Below, piece after piece: positions 3,200 through 46,118 of a stretch of DNA of 64,000 nt (the stretch's first letter is position 1; each line of letters opens with the position of its first letter). The position numbers and the translations under genes are program-made. The notes beneath the pieces are model-generated. The model worked only from the letters and a program-made list of their open reading frames with translations, had not been told where the DNA came from and did no database searches. Origin of the DNA: Blastomyces gilchristii SLH14081 (lineage: Eukaryota > Ascomycota > Eurotiomycetes > Onygenales > Ajellomycetaceae); assembly GCF_000003855.2 (NCBI RefSeq), contig NW_003101658.1, positions 527,897 to 591,896 on the forward strand. Direction: 5' to 3'.

Positions 3200-3308
3200 T
3201 TATATAGCTTCTTAAACAACTATCTCTATATAACACTGCTGACTAGTCACCGCTTCAGTTCTGTCATGTTACAATTACATATATACAACACAACAATGTT
3301 ATTCTTCA
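3200..3308 (+). repeat. Putative 5' LTR of the left copia element
   Basis: The last ~40 bases (ending ATTCTTCA at 3,308) match the end of the right-hand copy at 8,409 with a few substitutions, and the primer-site-like sequence follows directly. The outer part aligns poorly with the other copy and the start could not be fixed, so the left boundary is a guess based on the 109-bp length of the other copy. Confidence 0.4.
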
Positions 3309-6300
3309 AGAGGTTATGAAGCTCTTCACAAGTAATAAATAACTGCAACAATGTGCTAAATTGACATCTTCACACATCATTATAAGCATGCCTAGATAAT
3401 TTATTAAGTGATTGAATTCATGATTAATCTAAGATCTGAGAGAATGTCTGACTTAACAAAAGAATATATATCTTCAAGACAGAGAAATGAGAAAATGTCA
3501 GAGTAGTAAATGTAAGATCACAGATCACTGTTAATATTAATAATGAATCAGAAAACAGCTTCTGAGACATTTAAGTCAGATAATACAATTATGAAAGAAC
3601 AATCTGATGAGTTCAATATATACAAAGACTCAGTTAAAGATATCAGTGAGATGTCAGATAATGTAGAAGACTTAAGTGATTAAAATAATAATAGCTCAGT
3701 AAGTAAGAAGACTTATATAAGACTTGAAATTGCAAGACTTCAGTATGAGATTGAGTGTATAAAGATTAGTAGAGATGAGATTCTTATAAGTAATAAGATA
3801 AGAGCAGATCTGATAGAATATCTTTAATGAAAAGAGAAGATATCTATTATCTATTATAATAAAAGTTCTCAAAGAATTCAGAAGCTAAGTAAGACTTATC
3901 AAAAGATTAATAGTTCTCACTGAATTCATTAACTACTTGATATAAAGACAGGAAATTCTTTTGACTGCAGAGCAGTCTGAAATTAATAATATTCTTAAAG
4001 ATAATAATCTTGATAAGAATATCACTATGAATATACAACATTTCTGAAAAGAATGCAATCTTTAATTATATAATTATATATAGTCTGTAATTACTCTACA
4101 GATCAAGACTCATTTCACTATACTTAAGAAGTTCAAATTATCAGCTTATACTCTATGAACTATTATAGAGAATAACTTTTCTGAGAGATCTACTATATAC
4201 AGAACTTATTTATTTAAAGAGCTTATTAAAATAATCTTTAAAAGTAAAGAATCTGATAGAGCTTTTATTAAATATCTGATTATTATAAGAACTGATTATA
4301 TTCATCTAAAATATAAGATTCTGAATGTTGTGTTTTTCAACAGACTGCTTACAGAAGTTAACAGAGATTGAGTCTCATTTATAAGAAATTAAATAAATCA
4401 AATTGACAAAGATAATACTCAACTCTTAAAGAATAATTTTATAAGCCTGTACTATGATATTCTTTTACAGCTCTCTACTGTAAATAAAGTAAATACTGAT
4501 ATATCTTGAAATTCTATCAATAACATATAAGATAAGAATAAGAAAGATAAGAATAAAGAGAAAGATAATAATAAGAATAAGAACACTGAATTCAAATCTG
4601 AATGTAGAGATAATAATACAAGAATCTGCTATCATTATTAAAAGATTGATTATATTCAGACTAACTGTTGAAAGAAATACTCTGAGAAACATTCTTTAAA
4701 TTTGAATTCTAACATCAATAGAAATAAGAATAAAGACAAGAATGCAGAGAATACAGATGCTACTTCTGTTTATAATATTATAAAGTAAGTATTTTATATC
4801 AAAGAAAAGACCTATGTGAGTAATCAGATAGAAAAAGATATCTGAATTCTAGACTCTGAATCAGACACTTATATTATATCTCACAAAGATCTTATCATGA
4901 CAAAATCTCAGAAGATGAAAGTAATGTTGAAAATAGTAGATAGAACAGTGATCTCTGCTATAGCTATAGAAGATACAAAGATTTCAGTGAAAGAAACAGA
5001 TATACTGTTAAATAATGTCTACTATATTCTGAAGTTAGAAGTGAACCTCATGAGTATGAGTAAGCTTATACATTAGAATTATACCTATAAGCAGTTAATA
5101 TATGAGAATAATCATACTATGTTGATTATGTCTTCTAACTGTATATTCTCATTTACAGCAAGATTAAATAAGAATAATATCTATGAGATGAAAAGACTGA
5201 TTATATACAGAGACTTAATTCAGTTTACTATACTTAATGATGATTTTGAATCTGTGAATATATTACAGATGAAAGATGACATAATATTAACACTATCTAA
5301 AAGAAATGATACAAAGATTATAGAACTTATAATAATGCAATAACATTAAAAGCTAGAACATCTAAATCTCATAGATATTATAAAAATGATAGCAGATTCA
5401 TATTTAAAGATGAGAATTATTGATTAACAAGCTTTATCATTCTGTAAAGTCTGTGTTCAGATAAAAATAATATATTCAATCTTCATATCTATGACATAAG
5501 CTGTTAAATCAGTAATGAGATTCTTCATTAATCTAATAGAGAGTGAAAAAACACTTTTCAACAGAAATGATACTCTCACTAGAAAGAGTGTAAGCTACTG
5601 ATTAAGTATAATAGACAATACAATCTGTTATAGATAAGTAATTCTTATAATAAGAAAGAAAGAATCTACTGCAAGATTAATAAACTTTATTATAAGTATT
5701 GAGATAACTATATAATATCAAGTTGAAACTCTACACTGAGATGATGAAGAAGAGTTCAAAAGTCAAGAACTTAAGATCTACTGTCAGAGTAAAGAAATAA
5801 TGTATGAAATGACTACATCTAATACATTACAATTAAATAACTCAGTGAAATACATAAATTAAATAGTTACAGAAAAGACATGAAGTCTACTATTTAATAG
5901 TGAATTAGAAAGAGAACTTTGAGATGAAGTAATACAAGCTGTGATTATGATAATCATTACATCTTTAACATTAACAAAGATATTTGAATGTAAAAAAGAA
6001 ACATTACTTATATCTTTTGAAGTGTGAACTGAGATGCAATCTTCTGTTTATTGAATATGAAGATAAAGATACAAGGTCTACAAGAAGAATTTGAAAGTAT
6101 TGAATAAGCTTATGAATAGAACTGACAGCAGGAAATAACAGCTGATTGAATATCAAGAATTATATTAATATTATATGTGAAATTCTGTTGTATGTCATCT
6201 TGAGATTGCATAAGATATTATATTTGATGAAGCTCTTAACATAAGTGTAAATACATCTGTAAATATAGTGAGAGAATTCAATGAATTGTCTGATGAATTG

Positions 6301-8300
6301 AATATTCTGAATATTAGAGAGAAATGACAGCACTGCTTACTATAACATCTAGTGAAGAAAAAGTCAGATATTTTAAAGATAATTATAAATAAGAACTTAG
6401 AGAGTGTAATTGATTCAATCTATCTTCTAGATAATAAGATATAGTTTATTATGAATGAAGAGTCTGAAGACTCTGTTAATGAGAATAATTCTGTTCTAAG
6501 TATTCTGACAGACTGATTAACTACACTGACAGAAGTTAAGAGAAGCTCAGACTGAGACTATTAACATAAGATAATAAAAAAGAAGGTTAAGATATTTGAA
6601 CAGAAGAAGATATATATTATCATTGAGAAGGCTCTGAAAATGAATATTCTTACAGATAAATGAGTATATGATTAGAAATTTAATAATAAGAGAGAAATTA
6701 TTCACTTTAGAGCTCACTGAGTGATTAGAGAGTTCTTGTAACAGCAGAATATTTATTATATAAGATTATATACTGCAGTGATATCAGAGTCTACATCACA
6801 CAGTCTATTCACTATATCAACTATCAAAGAATGAAAGATCAAATCAATTGACTATGTATTCATGTTTTTTAAATGATATACTATCACAGAATGAGATAAT
6901 CTATATATAACTACTCACAGATATTAAGCATAGCAGAGAGAGCTTAATGAGACTACTCTGTCAGAGTCTATATGAAATGAAGCAAGCTGCAAGAGTATGA
7001 TATTTTCTAGTAATAAAACATCTCATCACATTAAGATTCAAGATATCACCTTATGATGATGAATTTCTATATTATTCTGTTCACAAGATCTATCTGACAT
7101 TGTATATTAATAATTGTTAAGTGATAGAATCTCAAGAACAGCAATTAGACTGAGTATTGAGAAAGATTATAAAGAGATTTAAGATAAAGAATGTCAAAGA
7201 GATCAAGTTATATCTTGAAATGAAGATCAAATGTCAGAGAAATGATAATCTAGCAGTTACACAGAGTTATTATATTGAGAAGATTCTTGAAGATTTTGAT
7301 ATAAATAAGATAAATTCAGCTGACACTCTGATGATAGCTGATATATAACTGAAATTCTTATCTGATAAGAGAGAGGAATTGAATGATGACTTTACAGCTA
7401 TAAGATATTATCAAGAATTGAAATTATTGCAATATTTAATCTCAAGCAGTCAGTCAGATCTGGCATTCACAGTTAACTATCTCTCATATTTTAACTTGCA
7501 TCTGCACAAGGCATGTTGAGCAGTGTTGAAGCATGTTCTACATTATATCAAGAAGACAAAAAACCATGATATATTGTATAAGAAGAAGATAGAAGATGGC
7601 CTGAGTTCTGTGATATACTGCAATTCAGACTGAGTGAGGGTGAATTCTCAATACAAATCAACTACTAGCTATATTATATTGATTAACAGATCACTGATCT
7701 CATGATAATTGTAGAAACAGACATCTATTATCAAATTAATTACAGAAGCTGAATATATTGCAGCTAGTAAGACAGCTTGTAAGATAATCTGATTGAATGA
7801 TATGTTATATAATACTGAGTTAATAAATGATGAAAAAGCAAAAATATGCTCACATCTATAAGTTGATAATAAGAGAGCAATTAATCTAGTAAAGAAGGAA
7901 TTCTTAATGTGAAGATCATACTATATTGAGATTAGATATCATATTCTCTGTGATTTAATTGAAAAAGAGGAAATCATGATGAAACATGTTAATTCTACAG
8001 TGAATATAGCTGACAGACTCATCAAGTCACTGATGAAGCCTGCATTTGAAGATTTTATCAAAAGAATTGATTTGAAAGAGATCAGAAAGAAATGATTGAA
8101 TGATAATAATAATACAGTAAATCAATGAATTTTGCATGTATTTCTTGATTTTTACAGTTATTGCTGTACAGACATCTTTTCTAATGAGAAAATCAGAGTC
8201 TGATTCATGTAATTAATTATTATTGCATTTTTGAAAGATTTGAGAATGAGAAAGGTCTCAGATGACAGCTTATTATAGGCTATGATGTAGTAAGAGAGAG

Positions 8301-8409
8301 TGTTGATGATTACTACATCTACTCTAGTCATGTGCCACTTCAACCTATTCATTTAGTGTAACTCGCGTAGATAGATTACACATATATAACATAACAATGT
8401 TATTCTTCA
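8301..8409 (+). repeat. Putative 3' LTR of the left copia element
   Basis: A purine run (GTAAGAGAGAG) ends at 8,300 and is followed by TGTTGATG, as expected for a polypurine tract next to an LTR start. The unit ends ATTCTTCA at 8,409 and keeps CpGs (ACTCGCG near 8,361) that are missing from the element interior. No target duplication could be confirmed. Confidence 0.5.
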
Positions 8410-8589
8410 AGACATAATACAGTAATAATCAGTTGATAATTGACTTTCAATCTTTCAATTCACTCATTTATTCAGCTTATCAATCAATCAAAGCATGTAT
8501 AGCTGATTCATAATTAATTAAATAAACAGATAAATTCATATAGAATATAAAGAGATATTTTACAGAATTTTAAAATATATTAAGATAAA

Positions 8590-33652: not shown

Positions 33653-33764
33653 TGTTGGCCCTTACGGCCGTTGCGGTTAGCGATCCCACTAGATCATGTG
33701 ACCCACCACTATATTATGTTCTTGTAGATAGATCTATCAATACACAACCTTCAACTATTCTACA
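33653..33764 (+). repeat. 5' LTR of the copia element (112 bp)
   Basis: It differs from the right LTR at three of 112 positions, all C/T or G/A transitions, and keeps several CpGs although the adjoining interior has lost nearly all of them. Confidence 0.95.
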
Positions 33765-36700
33765 GGTTATAGCCTGGATGACACATTTTTCTTTTTAGAA
33801 CATTGCACCAACATTTTTGACATGAATAGTTCATCTTTTTTGAAAAGACTCTTACTCTTTATTAGAGATATTTCATTTTTTCTGAATCTGCTAGTCAGCA
33901 GATTTATATACTTTATTTTTTTAAAAAAGTATATTCTTCATTGTGAAGAATATCACTTTTTTATTTTTTTTTTTACATATCTAGAAGAAGCAGAGTTACC
34001 TTGATATAAGTGATATATCTGTTACTTCAGAGTTCAGCTCAAGACTCAGAATTACATGCTTCACTAGATAACTCATTAATAGAATAATCACTTATTATAA
34101 GAAGACTTCTGACTTATAAGATAAGACTGAGATCAGTTTTCACCAGAGTATGAAATTTAATGATGAGATAACAGAGAAACTTCAGAATAAAAAAAAGCAG
34201 AGTTAATATTCATCTATAGAATCTGTTCATTTCAACTTATTAAATTCTTTACTATTTCTCACTCTCAGAATGCTGACTTTTAATAATAATTTAAATCAAT
34301 CTATCTATTACACTGCAGGCAATCTTATAAATCTTATATAGATAATACTATGAAATCAAATAACTGCAGCTGAAATTACTTAACATCTTACTATATCTAT
34401 CTCTGTATAAAGAGATACTATAAGAGATAAGTTACAGAAATATCAGAAGAAGATTAAATATATATTAAATATTAAATCAGTGACTACATTTAATAACTTT
34501 AATTATAAAGTCTGATATATTGATATATTAACTGATATGAAAGTTATTAATAAAACTAATATTCTATTAAGAATTCAATGAGAATTTTCTTTTATATATT
34601 ATATTAATTCTGAGAAGTGAAGAATTCATTTTAAGTCTCTATATAGATATATACTATCAAGTCTTGTTAAAAACATTCAAATTACTATTAAAATCTTGAA
34701 AGCTGATAATACTGCAGCTCTATAAGATAAGATTAATATTGAATATATAATATCACTGATAGAAGAATGAGTTAATATCTTTAAGAAATTAATAAAATTA
34801 TAAGTTAAGAAGAATGATTATCTTACTTTTCAGAGATATTTTTACTATCTTATTATCTATTATAAAGAGCTCTGTCAGAGTACTAAAAATATATATTATA
34901 ATCTTTTTCTCAACAATCTATAAGATTATCAAAGACTGTTTATTAAGATACATTTGAATGAGTTTTTCTTCACTAATCAGAGACTCATTATTAATATTGA
35001 TATTAATAATTTAATGAAGTAACTGATTAATTGTATATTTAAGAAGATTATTACTGAATGAAAAAAGCAGTCTCAGACTGATTCTGTAACTGTAAAAAAG
35101 AATAAGAATAAAGATAAGAATAAAAGCACATCTGTATGAAAGTACACTCACTATAGAAGATATAAATATACTATTGACAGATGTTTCATTCTACACTCTG
35201 ATAAAAAGAAAAAGAAGAATGATAAGAAGAATGATAAGAAGAAAGAGAAGAAGAATAACTTGATAAGTTCTTAATTAGCAGTAAATACAGTAATTATAAA
35301 GATTGAGTTCTATTTCTCTTTCACAGTCACTGGAAAATCATTCTCTAGATCTTGATATTTGAACACATGTACAAGTCTAAATATAATAAGTGAGCTTTAT
35401 TCTTTCTCAAATATTAAATCTTTCAATGATAATATCTCTGTCAATTCTGTAACTGAGAAAACTGAGTTTGTCAAGAAGATTGAGACTGTTATCTTAAAGA
35501 TTAAGAGTGATAATATTAACTTGCAGAATATTCACTATATTTCTAATATTATAGTTAATCTGCTCTCATTTATAAAGCTTGAAGATCAGAGATTCTGATT
35601 TATATTATCTTTTACTATTTTCTCATTTTTCATTTACAGAGCTCTAAATGATGTTATTTTTCATATAGTTCAGACTGCTCAGAACAATATATATAAGATT
35701 AATAAACAGAAGTTCAATGAGAATCTTAATTATCTGAATAAGACAGTCAAGTATATTACAATATTATATGAGTATAATTTTAACTGAAAAGTTAATCTTT
35801 CTGTGACTGCTGTTACTACTATTAATAACATTGATTCTACAGTTCTGAATACAGGTCTTAAGAATATAAGAATATCAAAGACTCTTTTGAACTGACACTG
35901 TGATTTCAGTCACATTTACACTGATACTATAATTACTATGATCAAGAATTCTTATACTGAAGTCATAATTAAAGATTCTAAGACTAAGTTCTTTTATATG
36001 AAATGTATTAAGACAGATATAATACAAGATTATTCAAAAACATCAATGCCTAGATCTATTTAACTTATTGAGAAGATTTATATTGATTTTATAGATAATA
36101 AATATACATTGAAAGATCTCTCTAATTATCTCTTAGAGTTCTGCTAGAAGATTAAATACTGAATACTTATCATCTGTAATGTGACTTACTACTGTTAAGT
36201 ATATTTTTTAAAGTTCAAGAATGAGACTATTCAATACTTTGAGTTATGGCTCAGATTCATGAGTAATCTCAGATATACAGTCTCTGCTTTTCTACAGACT
36301 GATATTAATAATGTTTTTCAATTCACATGTATACACACAGTTATGAATTCATATGATATTAAATGAGAATTAACAGTATCACATTTATCACATCAGAATG
36401 ATATTTTCAAACATGAGATCTGCACTATTATAAGACAGATTAAAGCTGCTCTTTTAAAAGATAATCTCTCTAAGAAGTTCTGAGCAGATATTCTAGAGAC
36501 AGTGATTATAATAATTAATAATACTCTCACATCTACAGTTCTTTATAACTTGAAATTTTAGTCCTCTACTGCAGAGACTTCTGTGATTTCAAGTTTATAT
36601 AAGATTTCTTAGTATGCACTTATGAATATCTCACTGAATGTGAGACATTTTCACTGATTAAGTACAGAGGTTTTTATTCACTTGCATGAATCTCAGTAAT

Positions 36701-38573
36701 CTGTGAATAAGCTTTCTTCACATACTGATTTCTATTATATCATTGAATTCAGTGACACATTAATATATTATCTATGACATCTCAAATCTGATAAGATTAT
36801 TATTAGTAGTGATATGAGATTTCTGATCACTGAAAAACCAGTTATTATATCTGTGAAACTTATTAATTATGTTATTGAACTGAAACCTGATATTCATCTG
36901 ATTGATAATAAAGATGTCTCTGATATTAATAATCTGAATTCTACATGATTGCAGTCTGTGAAATCACTGACTACATATACTCTGAGTCTTATTACAGATA
37001 ATCTTCTGAAGTTCTACAAGAATGTCATATCTCAGTTAGAGAGAGTAGAAGATTATTAAAAAAAGTTCATATAATATGAGATTACTGATCTGAAGAGACA
37101 CAATATATGAAGTTTAATCTCTAGATCAGATATTCTGAGAGATGAACTGATTACTTCAGACTGTTAAGTATTTCTTAAGAAAGATAGATCTGCAGATCTG
37201 AATATCAATTCTGATAATATTCTTAGAAAATTATATTGAGTGATTTATAATAACTGACTTAAGAAGAGTTCTAGAGAAGAGATCTATACTTCTATCATCA
37301 CTGATACTGTTAATTGTATTCTTTTTATAATAGCAGCACTTCATGATTGAATACTTCATTAAGTAAATATAGTAATAATATATCTGTATGAGTATCTTAC
37401 TAAGAAGATCTATATAAGATAACTCACTGAATTTAAGACAGATTCACTGAAAACACTTATCTGTATAATTGAGAGTAGTCTATATAATCTGAACTCTATG
37501 ACAAAGATCTGATACAATTACTTAACAGTTCTATTAAGTGATCTTGAATTTACAGTTAGTACTTATAATTCAGTACTTTAATATTATATATTCAGATGTC
37601 ATCTCTATATAATAATCTATATTGATAATCTCAACATTATATCTGAAGCTTCTGAGAATGCTGATTAACTAGTAAGTATACTTAGTGAGAAATTGAAAGT
37701 CAAGAATCTACACTAGTTAATCAAGTATTTAAGTATGAAGATCAATTATTTAAATAAGAGAATTAATTTAATATATTATCAATATATTAAATGTCTTGTT
37801 AAAGATTTCTATCTTAATAATACAGCTATTATCAGAATATCAATAAAGAATGAATTCTGTATTAATAATTTCTCTATATCTGAGAAAGAGACTGATTTCA
37901 CAATTCAGTAATATTAATATAATATGAGTTACTTGTAATATCTTGTAGTTAAAACATGTTCTGATATCACTCACACTGCCTTGCTACTTACTCAATGAAA
38001 TGTTAATTTAATATCTCAATATTAAAAGGCTCTATTATATGTTATACATTATTTAAAAGAGATTATAAATCTGAGTATTTTCTACAGATATAATCTGTAT
38101 AAGAAATCTGTTTCTTCTACTTCTATTAATCTTTTCATTTCTATCAATCTTTTTATTATCTCTGATTTTCTCAATGATTTCTATCTACTCTTCAGCTACT
38201 CAGATTCTGATTGAGCTGATCTCTTAAATAATGATAGAAAATTAACATTCAGCTATATTTTTAAGCTCACAGACAGCTTAATTTCATAATATTCAGTAAA
38301 ACAATCTTGTATATCTCTAAGTTTTAATAAGACTGAATATATAGCTCTTAGTGAGATGATCTGTGAGATAATATGAATTTGAAATCTCATAATTGAGCTT
38401 GACTTTATTACTACATCTCTGATACAGATTCTTACTGATAATAAGAATGTCATAGATCTTATAAAGATGACAGTCATTACAGTCTGAAGCAAGCATATTG
38501 ACACATGTTTTCATTTTTCATGTTAGCAGTTGAATCAGAGAGTTATTGATTTAGAATACATTCTCACTGCTTA

Positions 38574-38830
38574 TGTAAGAATAAGTGCTCGCAGGCGATT
38601 ATTCGGGTGTTTGCAGCTTGGCGTGATATGTACTGTTAACTACTAGAAGTGTTCATGGTAGAAAGATAAATGTAGAGATCAAATATATCATAGTATTTAA
38701 GCTGAGTTGTGAATAGTATTCGCGAATTCCAGTCTATATAGTTGTGTGTAGCCAAGGGCTGCTAGCTCTATTAATTATATGAGAGATAGAAATAGAGATA
38801 AAGAATCTGTGAGAAGTGAGATTTCTTACA
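38574..38830 (-). repeat. 3' LTR of the nested gypsy element (257 bp)
   Basis: Paired with 45,562-45,818. Its left, outer part keeps CpGs (for example GCTCGCAGGCG near 38,587 and ATTCGCGAATT near 38,718). Its right, interior-facing part has lost them relative to the other copy. Confidence 0.95.
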
Positions 38831-41800
38831 TATTTCTCTCTCTCTAAGGCTTTGTCTGCAAAGCCTTTCACTGAGTGACTTCATAGTCAGCTCAGCACTG
38901 CAGTGATACTCACTAAAAACTCTTTACATCTATAAAAAACCTCAGTGAGAAAAAATCCCTTGTTACTGTGAAGAGAAAAGAGTCTGTCACTCAGTTTCTT
39001 ATTCTGTAAGATTCTTTATAATCTACAGATTCTTCTCTGACTATCACACAGATTCATCTCACATCTTTCATATAGAAGAGTTTCAGTTGACTCTCAATTA
39101 TTTTCATAAGATTCTTGTATAATCATCACACAGATTCATCTCACAGATGAATCACTCTCTGTGAGATTATTCTTATTAAAGAGAAACATTTATGAGTTAA
39201 TCTTTTATTCATTCTCACAAATCATTGCTCTTTGACACTGTAGAATTGTGAGGAATTTTTCATTCTTTCATCAACTCTGTAGAATTATAGAATCAAGATA
39301 TCTGCAGTCTGCAATCACTCTTTGTAGTTATATAGAAAGATTCAGATCTGTGATTCATAATCACTCTTATTTACTAGAGTGATCTGACTGTTTCACAGAA
39401 TCACTCACAGTGTAAGTAAACCTCTCTAGAGTAGTATAAATATCTCAGATCTGTCTGCAGAATCTCATCTTCTTTTCTCTTTTTCTGTAACAGCTCTTAT
39501 CTTTATAAACTGTGAGTATTCTTATTCATCTGTGAAGTGTTTTCACTCAGATAATAGAGAGAGAGTGTTCCTGACAATATCTGTATATTAATTCAAGAAC
39601 TTCTCAAGAATAAAAATTTTTTCAATTTCAATATCTTTGTAAACAATGTCTAGTCATCACTGAGCTTCTTGTAAGTGTCTCTGTGACTTCTCTGATTGCT
39701 TTTTATCAGCTGATGAAGCAGAGATGCTGCTGCTCACAATCATGTCTTCATTCTTCTCAGTCTTATCACTGCACTCAATCTTCAGATCAGTGACTTATCT
39801 CATTTCTTTCTCAGATCAGTCTCTGGCTTCAAGCAGTGTAGTTCTCTTCTTTACTATAAGTCTTCTCATAAGTAATTTCTTACAGACTCTAGCTAACAGT
39901 TCTTGCAAAGCTCTCAGTGTTATCAGTGTCTTCTATGACTCTACAGGCCTATAATCACTCTCTCTCTGTCTGCACAATCTCTGACCAGGTATATATGAAT
40001 ATGCCTAGATTTTCTATCAATGATTCTTACGCTGTGATGCATTTTCACAATCTCATTATCAATGAGAGATGAGTTTCTGAGTATCTGCAAAATCTGAGTA
40101 ATTAAGGTAATATGAATATCATGAATTTGTGATAAGAGTTGATCTGAGCAGATAAGCTTTCTCTTCATATCTTCATTATTTTCAGGCTGAATACTCCAGC
40201 ACAACTGAGAGAGTGAACACAGCTTTATAAGAGATATCTGATCACACATACAGATAATCAGTCTTCAAGACTCTGTCACAACTGTATATACTCTGATGTT
40301 CAGCTTCTCTAAAGTCTGTATATTTCTGACAATCTTCATATCAAATATAACAATTGTCTGTATCACAGGCATGATACTCTCTGCTTTTTTGAAGAGAGAA
40401 ATTAATAGTTATGAGAAGATTAAGTATCACAGATATTGATAATATAAGTATAAGTTTTCTTTGTTTTTTCTTTATTAATCTCTAAATTGTATTTACAGCC
40501 CTGTTTATTTTCTTGTTTTTTAGCTTTAATGAGAACATGTTTTCTTCTTTCCTTGTATATATCACAGACTGTTCATCTCAGTAGAAACCTATTATCTTAT
40601 AGACTAGAATTTGTAAATAACAGTATTAATATCTTTATCACAATCAGATTCTTAGTGAAGACTGTGTTATTCTGACTTATCAGAATTCACAGTATAAAAG
40701 TCATGTCTCAGCTTCTGCAGATGTCTTATCTGCTCAGATGATTTTCAAGTGAACTCATTCATCTTATCAAAATATTTTTATCACTGAATCTTGAATCAGA
40801 GCTTGTAATCTTGCTTCTCTGAGTTAATAATTCCTTTGACCTGATATTCTCTTTCACTCTCTAGTACTTTGTGAATAGAATGATGAGTTACAGAGTTCTC
40901 TTCTAAGAATTTCTTATATTTATAAAGTAAAGAGATATGAAAAATATTATACATCTGCAACTCAGATAATAGTTTCAATCTGTAGAACTGTGAGCTAACT
41001 TTCTTTATAATCTTATAAGATTCTGTCTGTAAGAGATTCAGCTTCTTACTAGATCTTTATATAATAATGTTTTCTAGACTCAGTCAGACTCTATCATCTT
41101 TCTTGAAACTCTTTATAATATGCTTAAAGTCATAGTATCTCTTCTGATACTCTTGAGTCTTTCTCAAGAATTCATAAGCTTTCTTCTGAATCTTCTGAAT
41201 TCTCTCAGCCTGTTCATGAGTATTATCATACTCTATAGTGTACTCTCACAGGTTCATCAAGATCATTCACAGATAAGTCTCAGTGAGCATCTCAAAGAGG
41301 GTTTTATCTGTACTGACATGCTTTGAGTTATTATATATGAACTCTGTGAGTAGTAATTAATACACTCAGTTATTCTGATTATAATTGATAAAGTATTACA
41401 GATACTGTTCTAATATACTCATCAGATATTCTATCTAATTATCTGTCTGTTAATAAAAAGCTGTACTTAGATCTTGTGAGATCTTCAGTATAGTTATCAG
41501 ATTAGATCAGAACTCTTCTACAAAGATTAATTCTCTATCTGAGATAATATTTATAGATAATTCATACAATCAGATCACATTGCAGACAAAGATATAAGTC
41601 AAATTCTTTGACTTTAAGTTCTTATAAGTGAGTATAAAGTGTGTCATCTTGATAAAGTAATTCACTATTATCAGCACACTGTTAAAGCAGACATTATATA
41701 TGTTCTTGCTTTCAGAGAGACTTATAAGAGTATTCATTTCTAACTATTCTCAAGGTTTCTGTAGAATGAGTAGAGAAGTGAGTTCTTCATATAATCTGAA

Positions 41801-44800
41801 CTGCACTATCTGTGAATTCTGATAAATAGTATAAGAATTCACTATCTTCTTCACAAGTTCTCACATCTTCAGTCAGAAGTATTTTCTTATGAGTAACTCA
41901 TAAGTTCTAGTATCTGTAAAATGATCTGCTAGAGAAGAGTCATGATGCCTTTTAATAAGTTCTATATATAGAAACTCATTCATAGGTATATAAATCCAGC
42001 TCTCTCTTTATAAAAGATCATTTAAGTCTCTTCAATTCTTTATTTCTGCAGGGTTGATCTCTGCTGTAAGCAGTTTTCAAATATACTGAGTATATTTATT
42101 CTTCAGTTACAGTTCAGACAATCTGAATAGAAGATCTTATAAAGACTTATACTCTGTTTCTTCTTATATCAGATCTTCTACAGTGCTTCTCAAAGTCTGT
42201 AAACTCTTCAGATTATAGATACTCTCTTCAAGAATTCTCATGAAGATTCTCAGAGTGTTAACTCTCAGTGTTATAGAGAGTAGTTATATAGACTTCTTCT
42301 CTTTCTTTTCTCTCTTCTCTTATAAGGAATTGAGAGACTCTTCAGTTAATCTCTTTGTAACACTCAGTCTGAGTATTCTGTGAAGCTTTTCTGTCTTCTC
42401 TAGTCTCTCTGTATCTGTCACTCTGATCTTCTTAATATAGTCTGATCTGTGAGAGAGTCTGTCTGCTGAGTTCTTAGTTCTCTTGATATATTCTATCTTG
42501 AATCAGAACTCACTCAGTCTCTGAGCTCAGTGAATCTGCTGCTATAAGAGTTTCTTAATTAAAGTAAACTATTATAAGCTATCATGATCAGTTCTAATAG
42601 TAATCACTGTTACAAGGCTCTTGAAGTAGTGACATTAGTGATGAAAGAATTTCACTATTATAAGAAGCTTCTGATTATAAATATCATAGTTGATCTTCAC
42701 AGATTGTATCTTTCATAAGAAAAAGATCACTGAAACTCAGTTCTTATTTAACTGTAGTTATGAGACTATTTCTGAAATTATAAAGAAGAAGATATCTATC
42801 TTCAATCTGATTAAGAGTAAGAGATTAAAGTGAAACAGTATCACTGTGTCTGTGAATATCTGTTTCAATCTTACAAAGACTCTGTAAGCTTCTGAGATAA
42901 GAAAGTTCTTACAGTTCTCTCTTCTTAATAATCTTTTCATTCTCTGTTTACAGAATAACTTCTTCTTATTTTCACTCTTCAGTATGTCTGTAAGAGTCAA
43001 GAAGATTCTTATAAATACAAAGATAAACTGTCTATAGAAATTCATAAAGCTCAGAAAGATCTGAATCTCATGAATACTAGTTAGCTCTGATTATAATAGA
43101 ATAGTCTCAATCTGTGAAGATTTTATCTGAATATTATTCACAGTGATTACATATTCTAGGAAATTAATCTGATAAGTACTGAAGTTACACTTTATAAGCT
43201 TAATATACAGTTCTGTCTCATCTAAGATCTTCAACATACTTTACACATGCTCAGTGTGTTCTTTCTTCTTCATAAAGTACATCATCACATCATTCAGATA
43301 TATTATTATAAAGATATTCAGATATATATAAAGTATTTTATTAATAAAAGACTGAAATGCTGTGAGAATATTAGTCAGATTAAAAGATATTACTAGATAT
43401 TCAAATAATCTCAGTGCAGTTCTAAAGACAGTCTTTTATTTATCTTCAGACTGTATTTACAGCTGTGTATATATATTGATTACATTCAGTTATGTGAATA
43501 TGACAGCTCTTATGAGATAATTAATCACATTCTTAATCAGAGACAGAGAGTAGTGACTCTTTATTATCTTAGAGTTCAGATTATAATAGTTTATATATAA
43601 TCTAAGATCTTCATTCTTCTTCTTTATAAATATCACAGAGGCTTCTGTGAAGATCTGTGAAGATTGAATAAAGTTATTCTTCAGATTCTTCTTTACATAG
43701 ATCTGCAAGATCTCTGTCTTATGATAAGAGAGCTTATAGATTGATTCTTAGAAGAATTTCTGTTCTTCTATCAAATCTATTATCAGATTCTTCTTATAGT
43801 GAGAAGAAAGCTCAGCTGTCTTAGCTGAGCTAAATATCTCTGTGAGATCTCAGTATTTCTCTGATATCTGAAGCTCAGTTTTCATGACTGTAAGATTCTC
43901 AGACACTTGTAAAGTCATTACATAGATAGACTTATCTTCTTTAATTAACTCTGCAGCATTAACTGCTTCTATCTCTGTAAGTAAGTCTATCAACACTGAT
44001 TGAAAGTATAAACCTGACTCACAGACAGCTATGTGCAGATTATGTCTTTGAAGTTATATAAGTCTTAAATACATGTTATCTGTGATATCTGTAATAATCA
44101 CAGTTTTTACAAATCTTCTTCAGATTTCAGAGAGATCTTGTAATTCAAAAATAATTCTTATAAGTCTCTCAGCTCTCAGGTCTGAGTTCTCATACTCTAC
44201 TTATTATAAGAGCAGATTCTCAGTCTTTATCTTTCAGCTCATTCACTTTACAAGCTTTAGAAACATTATAGTGATCTGAGATTCTAAGTTCATTAATACT
44301 TCTCATACTTATGAGACAGCAGTACTGCAGTACAGTCTCTCTCTGTAAGTAAGTATTTTCATTGAAGAAGTAACAGATTCAGATATCAGCTTTAAGACTC
44401 TTAAGAAGACTGTTACTGACTCTGTCTGTGACTTCTCAAATTTCTATTTTAATTTATCTGAACAGTTTGCACAGAGATATTCTGATTTAGAATAGATAAA
44501 GTAAAGTCTCTTTTTCTTAATCTCTCTATTATATACTCTGTTCACAGAAGCTTGTGAAACTCTCTCTCTCTGCTCAGTAGTCAGATATAAATCTCTCTAT
44601 ATTTTATCATCTTTTTCTGACAAATCTGTTCTCTGTTATTCTAACTCTTATAAGACTGATCAATAATTCACTCTCTGTAAGTCTGTGACTCTCACAGTGA
44701 TTCATAAGTGATAAATAAGAGTCATCAGTTTCTTCAGAGTCAAGAGCTTAGAGCCTTGCTCAATAAGCTTATTCTATATATCTTTATTCAGTCTCTTCAT

Positions 44801-45561
44801 GAATATCATTATTCAGGTCTTATTTCAGAGCCCTATTTTCACAGATCTTAATTCATATCATAATTTTATAAAGTACTGTGAGTAGTCTTCATCAGATTTC
44901 TTATCTCTTTTTCTAATATTGATAATTACAGCTCAGATATTCTCTATCTGACTCACAGAGTTTCTTAACTTATTCTTTAGATAGGTCTTGAGAACAGATT
45001 ATCAGAATCTCTCATAATTATTCTCTAGATAATTCAGTCAGTTCTTAGCTTCAGTGTAATAGAGATCTGTTATTATATAGATGATAGCTTCTTTATCTTT
45101 CATATCACACAGCTGAGCTTGTAAGTTAATTTCAAATACAAACTTATAAAAGCTTTTATAGATTGTAATTTGATAGATAATTTTAAGTAATTATGACTTG
45201 AGAAAGTTTCTTTTCAGTTCACAGATATCTCTGAAGATCATGTCTAGAGACTCAGTTTAAGAGTGTTTACAGATAGTAAGCATTTCTTATAGAAAAATAG
45301 CTTGATTCTGCAGAAGATGCTCAAGAATGTTCTTCACTGAGATTGATTTATTCATGAATTTGAAGAATTTCTCTATCACAGATGTAGAGAATGATGTTCT
45401 GTGAGTAATTGATAAGTTCTCTAAGACTTCTTTTACAGAGATTATTCATGATTTAGATGACTGCTTCTGAGTGTCTGCAGTAGAGTTTGCAGAGATTGAA
45501 GTATATGAGTTTCTAGTTCTTTCAGTTATAATAAGCAGTTACTGACTGACTGAGCTTGAAA

Positions 45562-45818
45562 TGTAAGAATAAGTACTTACAGGTGATTATTCAGGTATTT
45601 GCAGCTTGACATGATATATACTGTTAATTACTAGAAGTGTTCATGATAGAAAGATAAATATAGAGATTAAATGTATCATAGCATTCAAGCTGAGTTATGA
45701 ATAGTATTCACAAATTCCAGTCTATATAGTTGTGTGTAGCCAAGGGCCGCTAGCCCTATTGGTTACGCGAGAGATAGGAATAGAAGTAAAGGATCCGCGA
45801 GGAGCGGGATTTCTTACA
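45562..45818 (-). repeat. 5' LTR of the nested gypsy element (257 bp)
   Basis: The right, outer part keeps GC-rich sequence (GGTTACGCGAG and GGATCCGCGAGGAGCGGG). The left, interior-facing part is mutated relative to the copy at 38,574. The same length and ends as the partner show an intact insertion. Confidence 0.95.
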
Positions 45819-46006
45819 GCTTAGATAGCAGTGAATGAACTCACTAAATCTCTAAACACTGTGATATTTACACAATTCATGATTTTGCTAGATCTTACAG
45901 ATATAAAAGTTGAGAATGTTTAATTTTACATTTGTATTTGATTTTGACAGACTATCTTGGTAGTTTGGGTGTTTTTGTATGTGATTCTTGTTATCTCAAG
46001 GGGGGG

Positions 46007-46118
46007 TGTTGGCCCTTACAGCCGTTGCGGTTAGCGATCCCACTAGATCACGTGACCCACCACTATATTATGTTCTTGTAGATAGATCTATCAATACACA
46101 ACCTTCAACTATCCTACA
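46007..46118 (+). repeat. 3' LTR of the copia element (112 bp)
   Basis: Same length as the left LTR. It follows a G-run polypurine tract and is followed by the target duplication ACTTG and GC-normal host DNA. Confidence 0.95.

Follow-up and report, generated by a model that had tools for sequence, protein, structure and literature searches.

The two LTRs of one retrotransposon are copied from a single template at insertion, and a locus in the genome of Blastomyces gilchristii SLH14081 raises the question of how such copies could come to be mutated in complementary parts. The window analysed here is a stretch of 64,000 nucleotides of contig NW_003101658.1 (positions 527,897 to 591,896). It holds a gypsy element whose left LTR (38574..38830), interior (38831..45561, almost without CpG) and right LTR (45562..45818) lie on the minus strand, each LTR being near-intact on its outer side and damaged on its inner side. 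Both LTR copies start with TGTAAGAA and end with TTCTTACA, and the element is bracketed by the 5-bp target-site duplication GCTTA (38569..38573 on the left, 45819..45823 on the right), so that the TG...CA LTRs and the 5-bp duplication of a Ty3/gypsy element are both present. Among its coding fragments (2 of the 4 scanned had no domain match) are a Tf2-1-like SH3 domain fragment (PF24626, 40799..41056, minus strand, E 2.7e-9) and a weak reverse-transcriptase fragment (PF00078, 43244..43435, minus strand, E 0.028, under the curated cut-off). Since the coding fragments are on the minus strand, the right LTR in the window is the 5' LTR of the element, and the left one is its 3' LTR. The gypsy element is nested within a single copia element on the plus strand with 112-bp LTRs (33653..33764 and 46007..46118), each retaining 4 CpGs; ACTTG precedes the left copia LTR, and the right one has a G-rich tract before it and ACTTG after it (LTR ends and ACTTG being read by eye). 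The copia interior is divided into a long arm (33765..38573, plus strand, almost without CpG), the host DNA of the gypsy insertion, and a short arm (45819..46006, plus strand, zero CpG by eye), the right flank of the gypsy element being thus also copia.

A gapless alignment of the two gypsy LTRs over 257 bp yielded exactly 35 differences, transitions only, where the sequence-only reading of this DNA had estimated about 35. Taking the C or G state as the older one, the right copy has the A/T state at 17 of these positions and the left copy at 18. A single best breakpoint places 31 of the 35 changes on the inward side, a fit equalled in 3 out of 100,000 label shuffles. This bears out the reciprocal damage described in the sequence-only reading (right copy mutated in the first part, left copy in the last). 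The further claim that the damaged part is the LTR half facing the interior was correct as to the inward bias; in place of a boundary within the LTR, a ramp extending over hundreds of bp describes the data better.

For the family as a whole, we searched the 74.8-Mb assembly (75 contigs) with an LTR motif that is tolerant only at C/G positions of the window LTRs and literal elsewhere, and therefore favours young copies. The search returned 50 matches, namely 23 pairs (46 LTRs) and 4 unpaired LTRs (2 left, 2 right), the latter being kept outside the pair counts and inside the site counts. LTRs within the pairs are ~6,988 bp apart, and the 5-bp insertion duplication is exact in 22 of 23 cases (the remaining one is off by a single C/T). 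All 557 of the 557 within-pair LTR differences are transitions, in keeping with the restriction to C-to-T / G-to-A changes that marks RIP, the C-to-T change in repeated DNA known from Neurospora crassa; transversion-type cells over all 50 LTRs number 4. Changes in the inner direction account for 457 of the 557 differences, and an inner-side excess is present in every one of the 23 pairs. By halves, the right copy has 207 changes against 49 for the left in the first part of the LTR, and the left copy 250 against 51 for the right in the second. The multi-copy alignment proposed in the sequence-only reading thus revealed neither uniform damage nor a pattern free of orientation, and RIP-like damage fading toward the element edge recurred in 23/23 gypsy pairs, in 8/11 copia pairs and at the end of a third repeat family (see below).

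Choosing copies by their resemblance to one or the other window LTR (40 scored of ~1,550-1,590 candidates per query) was dropped, as it returns mostly same-side copies: 8/8 loci from one query were left LTRs and 30/30 from the other were right LTRs. A first tally (60 LTRs: 20 left, 40 right) included such loci; the final counts come from the motif search only. No truncated copies were returned by a two-letter BLAST. Block identity across 69 LTR loci flagged two, of which L064 has a single local indel-like block and L036 is an LTR adjoining foreign DNA, and the latter led to the third repeat family.

The 25 left LTR sequences are all distinct, as are the 25 right ones. In the 23 pairs, a left LTR differs from its own right LTR at 24.2 positions on average and from other left LTRs at 18.0, the own right LTR being more distant than other lefts in 20 of 23 pairs. 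In other words, position predicts gypsy LTR sequence better than shared history does. This has a bearing on the suggestion that the outer ends, where integration signals generally reside, owe their preservation to gene conversion or to selection favouring copies that can still mobilise. Because the LTRs of one element share a single template, their differences arose after insertion, and this, combined with the distinctness of all sequences on either side, 23 different insertion sites and a smooth gradient, makes such preservation very improbable. Inner-half changes are also clustered within copies, with a variance of 19.1 vs 6.7 under shuffling for left LTRs and 13.3 vs 6.3 for right LTRs. Within an element, the total number of changes in one LTR correlates with that in the other (rho 0.43, p 0.04); for the inner halves there is no such correlation (rho 0.13, p 0.55). 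As correlated totals are what element age would give, the clustering is not clean evidence for mutation in tract-wise bouts, and both bouts and age are possible sources of it.

The shape of the gradient was assessed by likelihood. A model with a free rate per column (log likelihood -1581.0) is improved to -1367.9 by a distance-from-edge factor, a gain of 213. The best step model (-1388.2) captures 193 of these 213 log units, the best smooth ramp being better by 20; relative to the saturated model (-1313.4), the ramp leaves 54 log units unexplained. The position effect is strong and a ramp fits it better than a step, with residual variation among sites. The same is seen in CpG survival, scored at the 12 LTR columns where CpG occurs in at least 5 of the 50 copies. 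In left LTRs, CpG survives in 24/25 copies at 17 bp from the edge, 22/25 at 23 and 31 bp, 16/25 at 49 bp, 8/25 at 148 bp, 10/25 at 150 bp, 19/25 at 187 bp (counter to the trend), 0/25 at 205 and 207 bp and 2-3/25 at 235-244 bp. In right LTRs, the respective values are 24/25 at 14 bp, 20/25 at 21 bp, 25/25 at 23 bp, 17/25 at 51 bp, 16/25 at 53 bp, 25/25 at 71 bp, 12/25 at 108 bp, 9/25 at 110 bp, 0/25 at 209, 227 and 235 bp and 5/25 at 241 bp. Overall, the site at 187 bp in left LTRs apart, survival declines from 80-100% at 14-31 bp to ~65% near 50 bp, to 32-48% between 108 and 150 bp and to 0-20% beyond 205 bp. In the slowly mutating contexts (CpA, CpT) the mutated share is still climbing past the LTR into the gypsy interior. 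A linear-plateau fit to these contexts over 1,257 bp levels off at 600 bp (bootstrap 400-900), or at 700 bp for the left and 550 bp for the right side alone; this distance is approximate, as a site that has changed in all copies escapes notice.

These data also allow one to weigh the possibility that mutation follows the transcribed unit (R-U5, interior, U3-R) and spares the untranscribed outer U3 and U5. The spared parts do correspond to what would be the outer U3 in the 5' LTR and the outer U5 in the 3' LTR, the LTR middle (columns 148-150) has a similar mutation load in either copy, and the step expected of such a boundary recovers most of the likelihood gain (the 193 log units above). On the other hand, that step is 20 log units worse than the ramp, survival drops within the first 50 bp and does so similarly at both ends, the slow sites continue to rise beyond the LTR, and a similar zone occurs at the third-family terminus, where no LTR is recognised (albeit in a biased sample). 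We consider a transcription-guided process unlikely.

The preserved ends stand between two depleted zones. The gypsy flanks are ~30% GC. Within 100 bp of the edge their CpG density is 0.08-0.24 per 50 bp, compared with 3.36 in the terminal 50 bp of the left LTR, 2.76 in that of the right LTR and almost none in the deep interior. This alternation argues against a neighbourhood-wide decay. The location of the outer left LTR half next to mutated copia DNA, which had been pointed out for the window, proved to be general: in 17 of the 23 pairs neither 300-bp flank contains a CpG, yet the outer LTR ends of these copies retain CpGs; in copy C26 the left flank has 10. This points to target DNA that was AT-rich and presumably mutated by the time the element arrived. 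CpG is near its expected density in GC-rich flanks: ten such copia flanks have 4-15 CpG per 150 bp, with a mean of 8.1 compared with the 7.8 predicted from the GC-rich DNA of the window at 9501-33000, and four such gypsy flanks have 10, 4, 9 and 0. The near-normal values for copia indicate no visible outward leakage of mutation. The changes are thus confined to repeats, as in RIP, with 10 copia flanks and 3/4 gypsy flanks near-normal and the interiors CpG-poor in what is a small sample.

With respect to sequence context, changes in the window LTR pair affect 14/24 CpG, 9/20 CpC, 10/29 CpA and 2/37 CpT sites. The mutation thus has a dinucleotide bias, another feature of RIP, with CpG preferred, unlike the CpA bias of N. 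crassa. The genome has three cytosine methyltransferase genes (L118, L119 and L120). One of them combines BAH and methylase domains, and we take it to be DIM-2-like; the gene in L119, which may represent the RID-type methyltransferase expected for RIP, matches the DmtA protein of B. dermatitidis at 99% identity over a query of 489 aa; the third has two in-frame stops within the match, perhaps introns, and is by our assumption possibly DNMT5-like. The DmtA-like and DIM-2-like methyltransferases could be candidate agents of the mutation.

A CpG target (14/24) together with a DIM-2-like gene would also fit a passive decay of methylated CpG in heterochromatin, the methylation starting from within the element and thinning out towards its ends. 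This scenario, which we regard as improbable, is difficult to reconcile with outer LTR ends that retain CpGs between two CpG-poor zones and with the mutation of CpC and CpA in addition to CpG. In fact, there are 0 transversions in 5,909 within-pair sites and yet the inner CpGs are nearly all lost, so that the rate looks far above that of passive decay.

The copia family was represented by 11 pairs, the window's own and 10 of 12 others (two with odd spacing were left out), obtained with a motif (73 matches) that contains literal Cs inside the LTR and thus favours intact LTRs. The 22 LTRs have 2-6 CpGs each and the 400-bp interiors 0-3, except for the right arm in the window, where this stretch enters the gypsy LTR. 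By direction, 8 of the 11 pairs are biased inward, 2 are ties (one being the window's own) and 1 is opposite, and 47 of 68 transitions are in the inner direction. The reference used for this count was offset by one base and extended two bases beyond the LTR, and the 4 transversions recorded are perhaps partly outside it. CpG survival in left vs right LTRs (of 11) is 7 v 2 at column 12, 9 v 4 at column 16 and 10 v 4 at column 28, with 11 v 10 at column 21, 8 v 10 at column 44 and 2 v 2 at column 7. Elsewhere in the window (approximately 3225-8415) there is an apparent second copia-like element with short LTRs, having a 71-bp direct repeat (73%) at 3274 and 8375 and CpGs retained near 8363 amid CpG-poor DNA.

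The third repeat interrupts one gypsy copy and occurs in at least 40 places in the genome. It was sampled as the query and the best 20 matches of 40 scored (2,891 candidates), the query covering the edge zone and hence favouring copies with the same edge. No LTR was recognised at its end, which in our view resembles that of a TA-duplicating DNA transposon. Its CpGs, present only in the last ~100 bp, survive in 21/21 copies at 12 bp from the end, 18/21 at 15 bp, 2/21 at 32 bp, 10/21 at 71 bp and 13/21 at 80 bp; the zone of 200-400 bp has one CpG in total among 20 copies. The loss of most CpGs at 32 bp here and the retention of CpG at column 187 in gypsy reveal a strong effect of site context. 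Overall, the same sheltered zone at the ends of copia and of the third family is supported by samples that are biased to intact ends, which makes its generality less firm than the result from gypsy pairs.

An edge of a different kind is provided by two LINE copies (L124 and L125) that have the same internal break point (near position 600) beside other repeated DNA. No clear edge protection was seen at these two breaks, with zero CpG in the first 100 bp. The C/G counts of this segment (40 and 42) are only slightly above those of three full LINE copies (36, 37 and 38). If the breaks predate the mutation, this pair (n=2) is weak evidence against an effect of the homology edge. The two copies have different repeated flanks, and a common shortened LINE form is possible. 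At another locus (L122), a stop-free endonuclease-domain frame lies in DNA rich in both GC and CpG, which sets it apart from the mutated LINE copies; the GC content then declines gradually across ~800 bp until the sequence is AT-rich.

Our preferred explanation of the reciprocal LTR damage, to which we assign a probability of roughly two in three, is a RIP-like, homology-dependent mutagenesis that ramps inward from the element edge. The element would insert with identical LTRs, and each copy would then be subject to RIP-type C-to-T mutation of both strands, with an intensity near zero at the outer edge, an approximately linear rise inward and a plateau after a few hundred bp. The outer LTR parts would remain near-intact and the inner parts decay, so that the two LTRs would appear reciprocally damaged. 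A mutagenic tract several hundred bp long may have to fit inside the homologous stretch; as few possible tracts would cover sites near the edge, a linear ramp would result. The decisive edge may be the end of shared homology rather than that of the element. A ramp from the element edge is what the gypsy family displays. That the machinery reads homology length does not follow from these data, as element and homology ends coincide in the gypsy, copia and third families and the LINE pair has no clear protection. That every repeat edge is sheltered, with the shape of the zone reporting a recognition length of several hundred bp and transposon termini systematically spared, is accordingly a more tentative proposition, for which we would give somewhat less than even odds.

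Comparison with known systems shows both likeness and difference. RIP in N. crassa is reported to prefer CpA (PMC10787394), as opposed to CpG in the Blastomyces gypsy LTRs, and to leak into flanks (PMC7296669), while here the GC-rich flanks look normal and the damage recedes inward; it is described as requiring at least 400 bp (PMC2621366, PMC3017866). A RIP-like, CpG-preferring change affects class I and II elements of Mycosphaerella fijiensis (PMC3562529), although the portion of that report available to us does not give the positional profile along elements obtained here. For the crapaud element of Podospora anserina, LTRs of full copies are described as RIPed and solo or fragment LTRs as mostly spared, which was attributed to small size (PMC10787394); an inner/outer contrast such as that in the gypsy LTRs is not mentioned in the accessible part of the account. 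In the RIPCAL study of Stagonospora nodorum, long non-tandem rDNA repeats are stated to be RIPed most notably in their central parts (PMC2621366). No inner/outer LTR asymmetry under RIP was found in the available parts of the open literature on the subject, to which (subscription literature being outside our scope) the comparison applies.

The pattern has consequences for LTR dating. The mean LTR divergence of the 23 gypsy pairs (0.094) translates into a naive age of 48 My at 1.05e-9 (27-72 My for individual pairs), to be compared with divergence-based median LTR ages of 38 My in B. dermatitidis and 45 My in B. gilchristii, published with a warning that RIP may inflate such ages (PMC11540331, 2024, as far as available). 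By contrast, 0 transversions in the 5,909 LTR sites give, at the rate of that study, a 95% bound of 0.36-0.73 My, the value varying with the share of transversions; over the 1,257 bp inward from each edge, in 25 left and 25 right sequences, 22 transversion-type cells were counted in 60,139, 17 of them in two sequences. This bound is under the point estimate of 1.9 My given for the species split in the accessible text of the same study, and its upper value overlaps the interval of 0.5-4.4 My (PMC11540331). For the sampled gypsy copies, the naive ages would reflect the mutation process and not elapsed time; as the sample favours young copies, a young age is not extended to all elements.

LTRs that are identical at birth provide a built-in control, in which a given base escapes mutation near the edge and is hit farther in, and natural copies could be used to measure how far inside repeats the RIP machinery begins to act. 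If the tentative proposition of generally sheltered edges is true, LTR ends and terminal inverted repeats escape this genome defence. The ramp would mean that transposon ends outlast the genome defence and that LTR dating is distorted.
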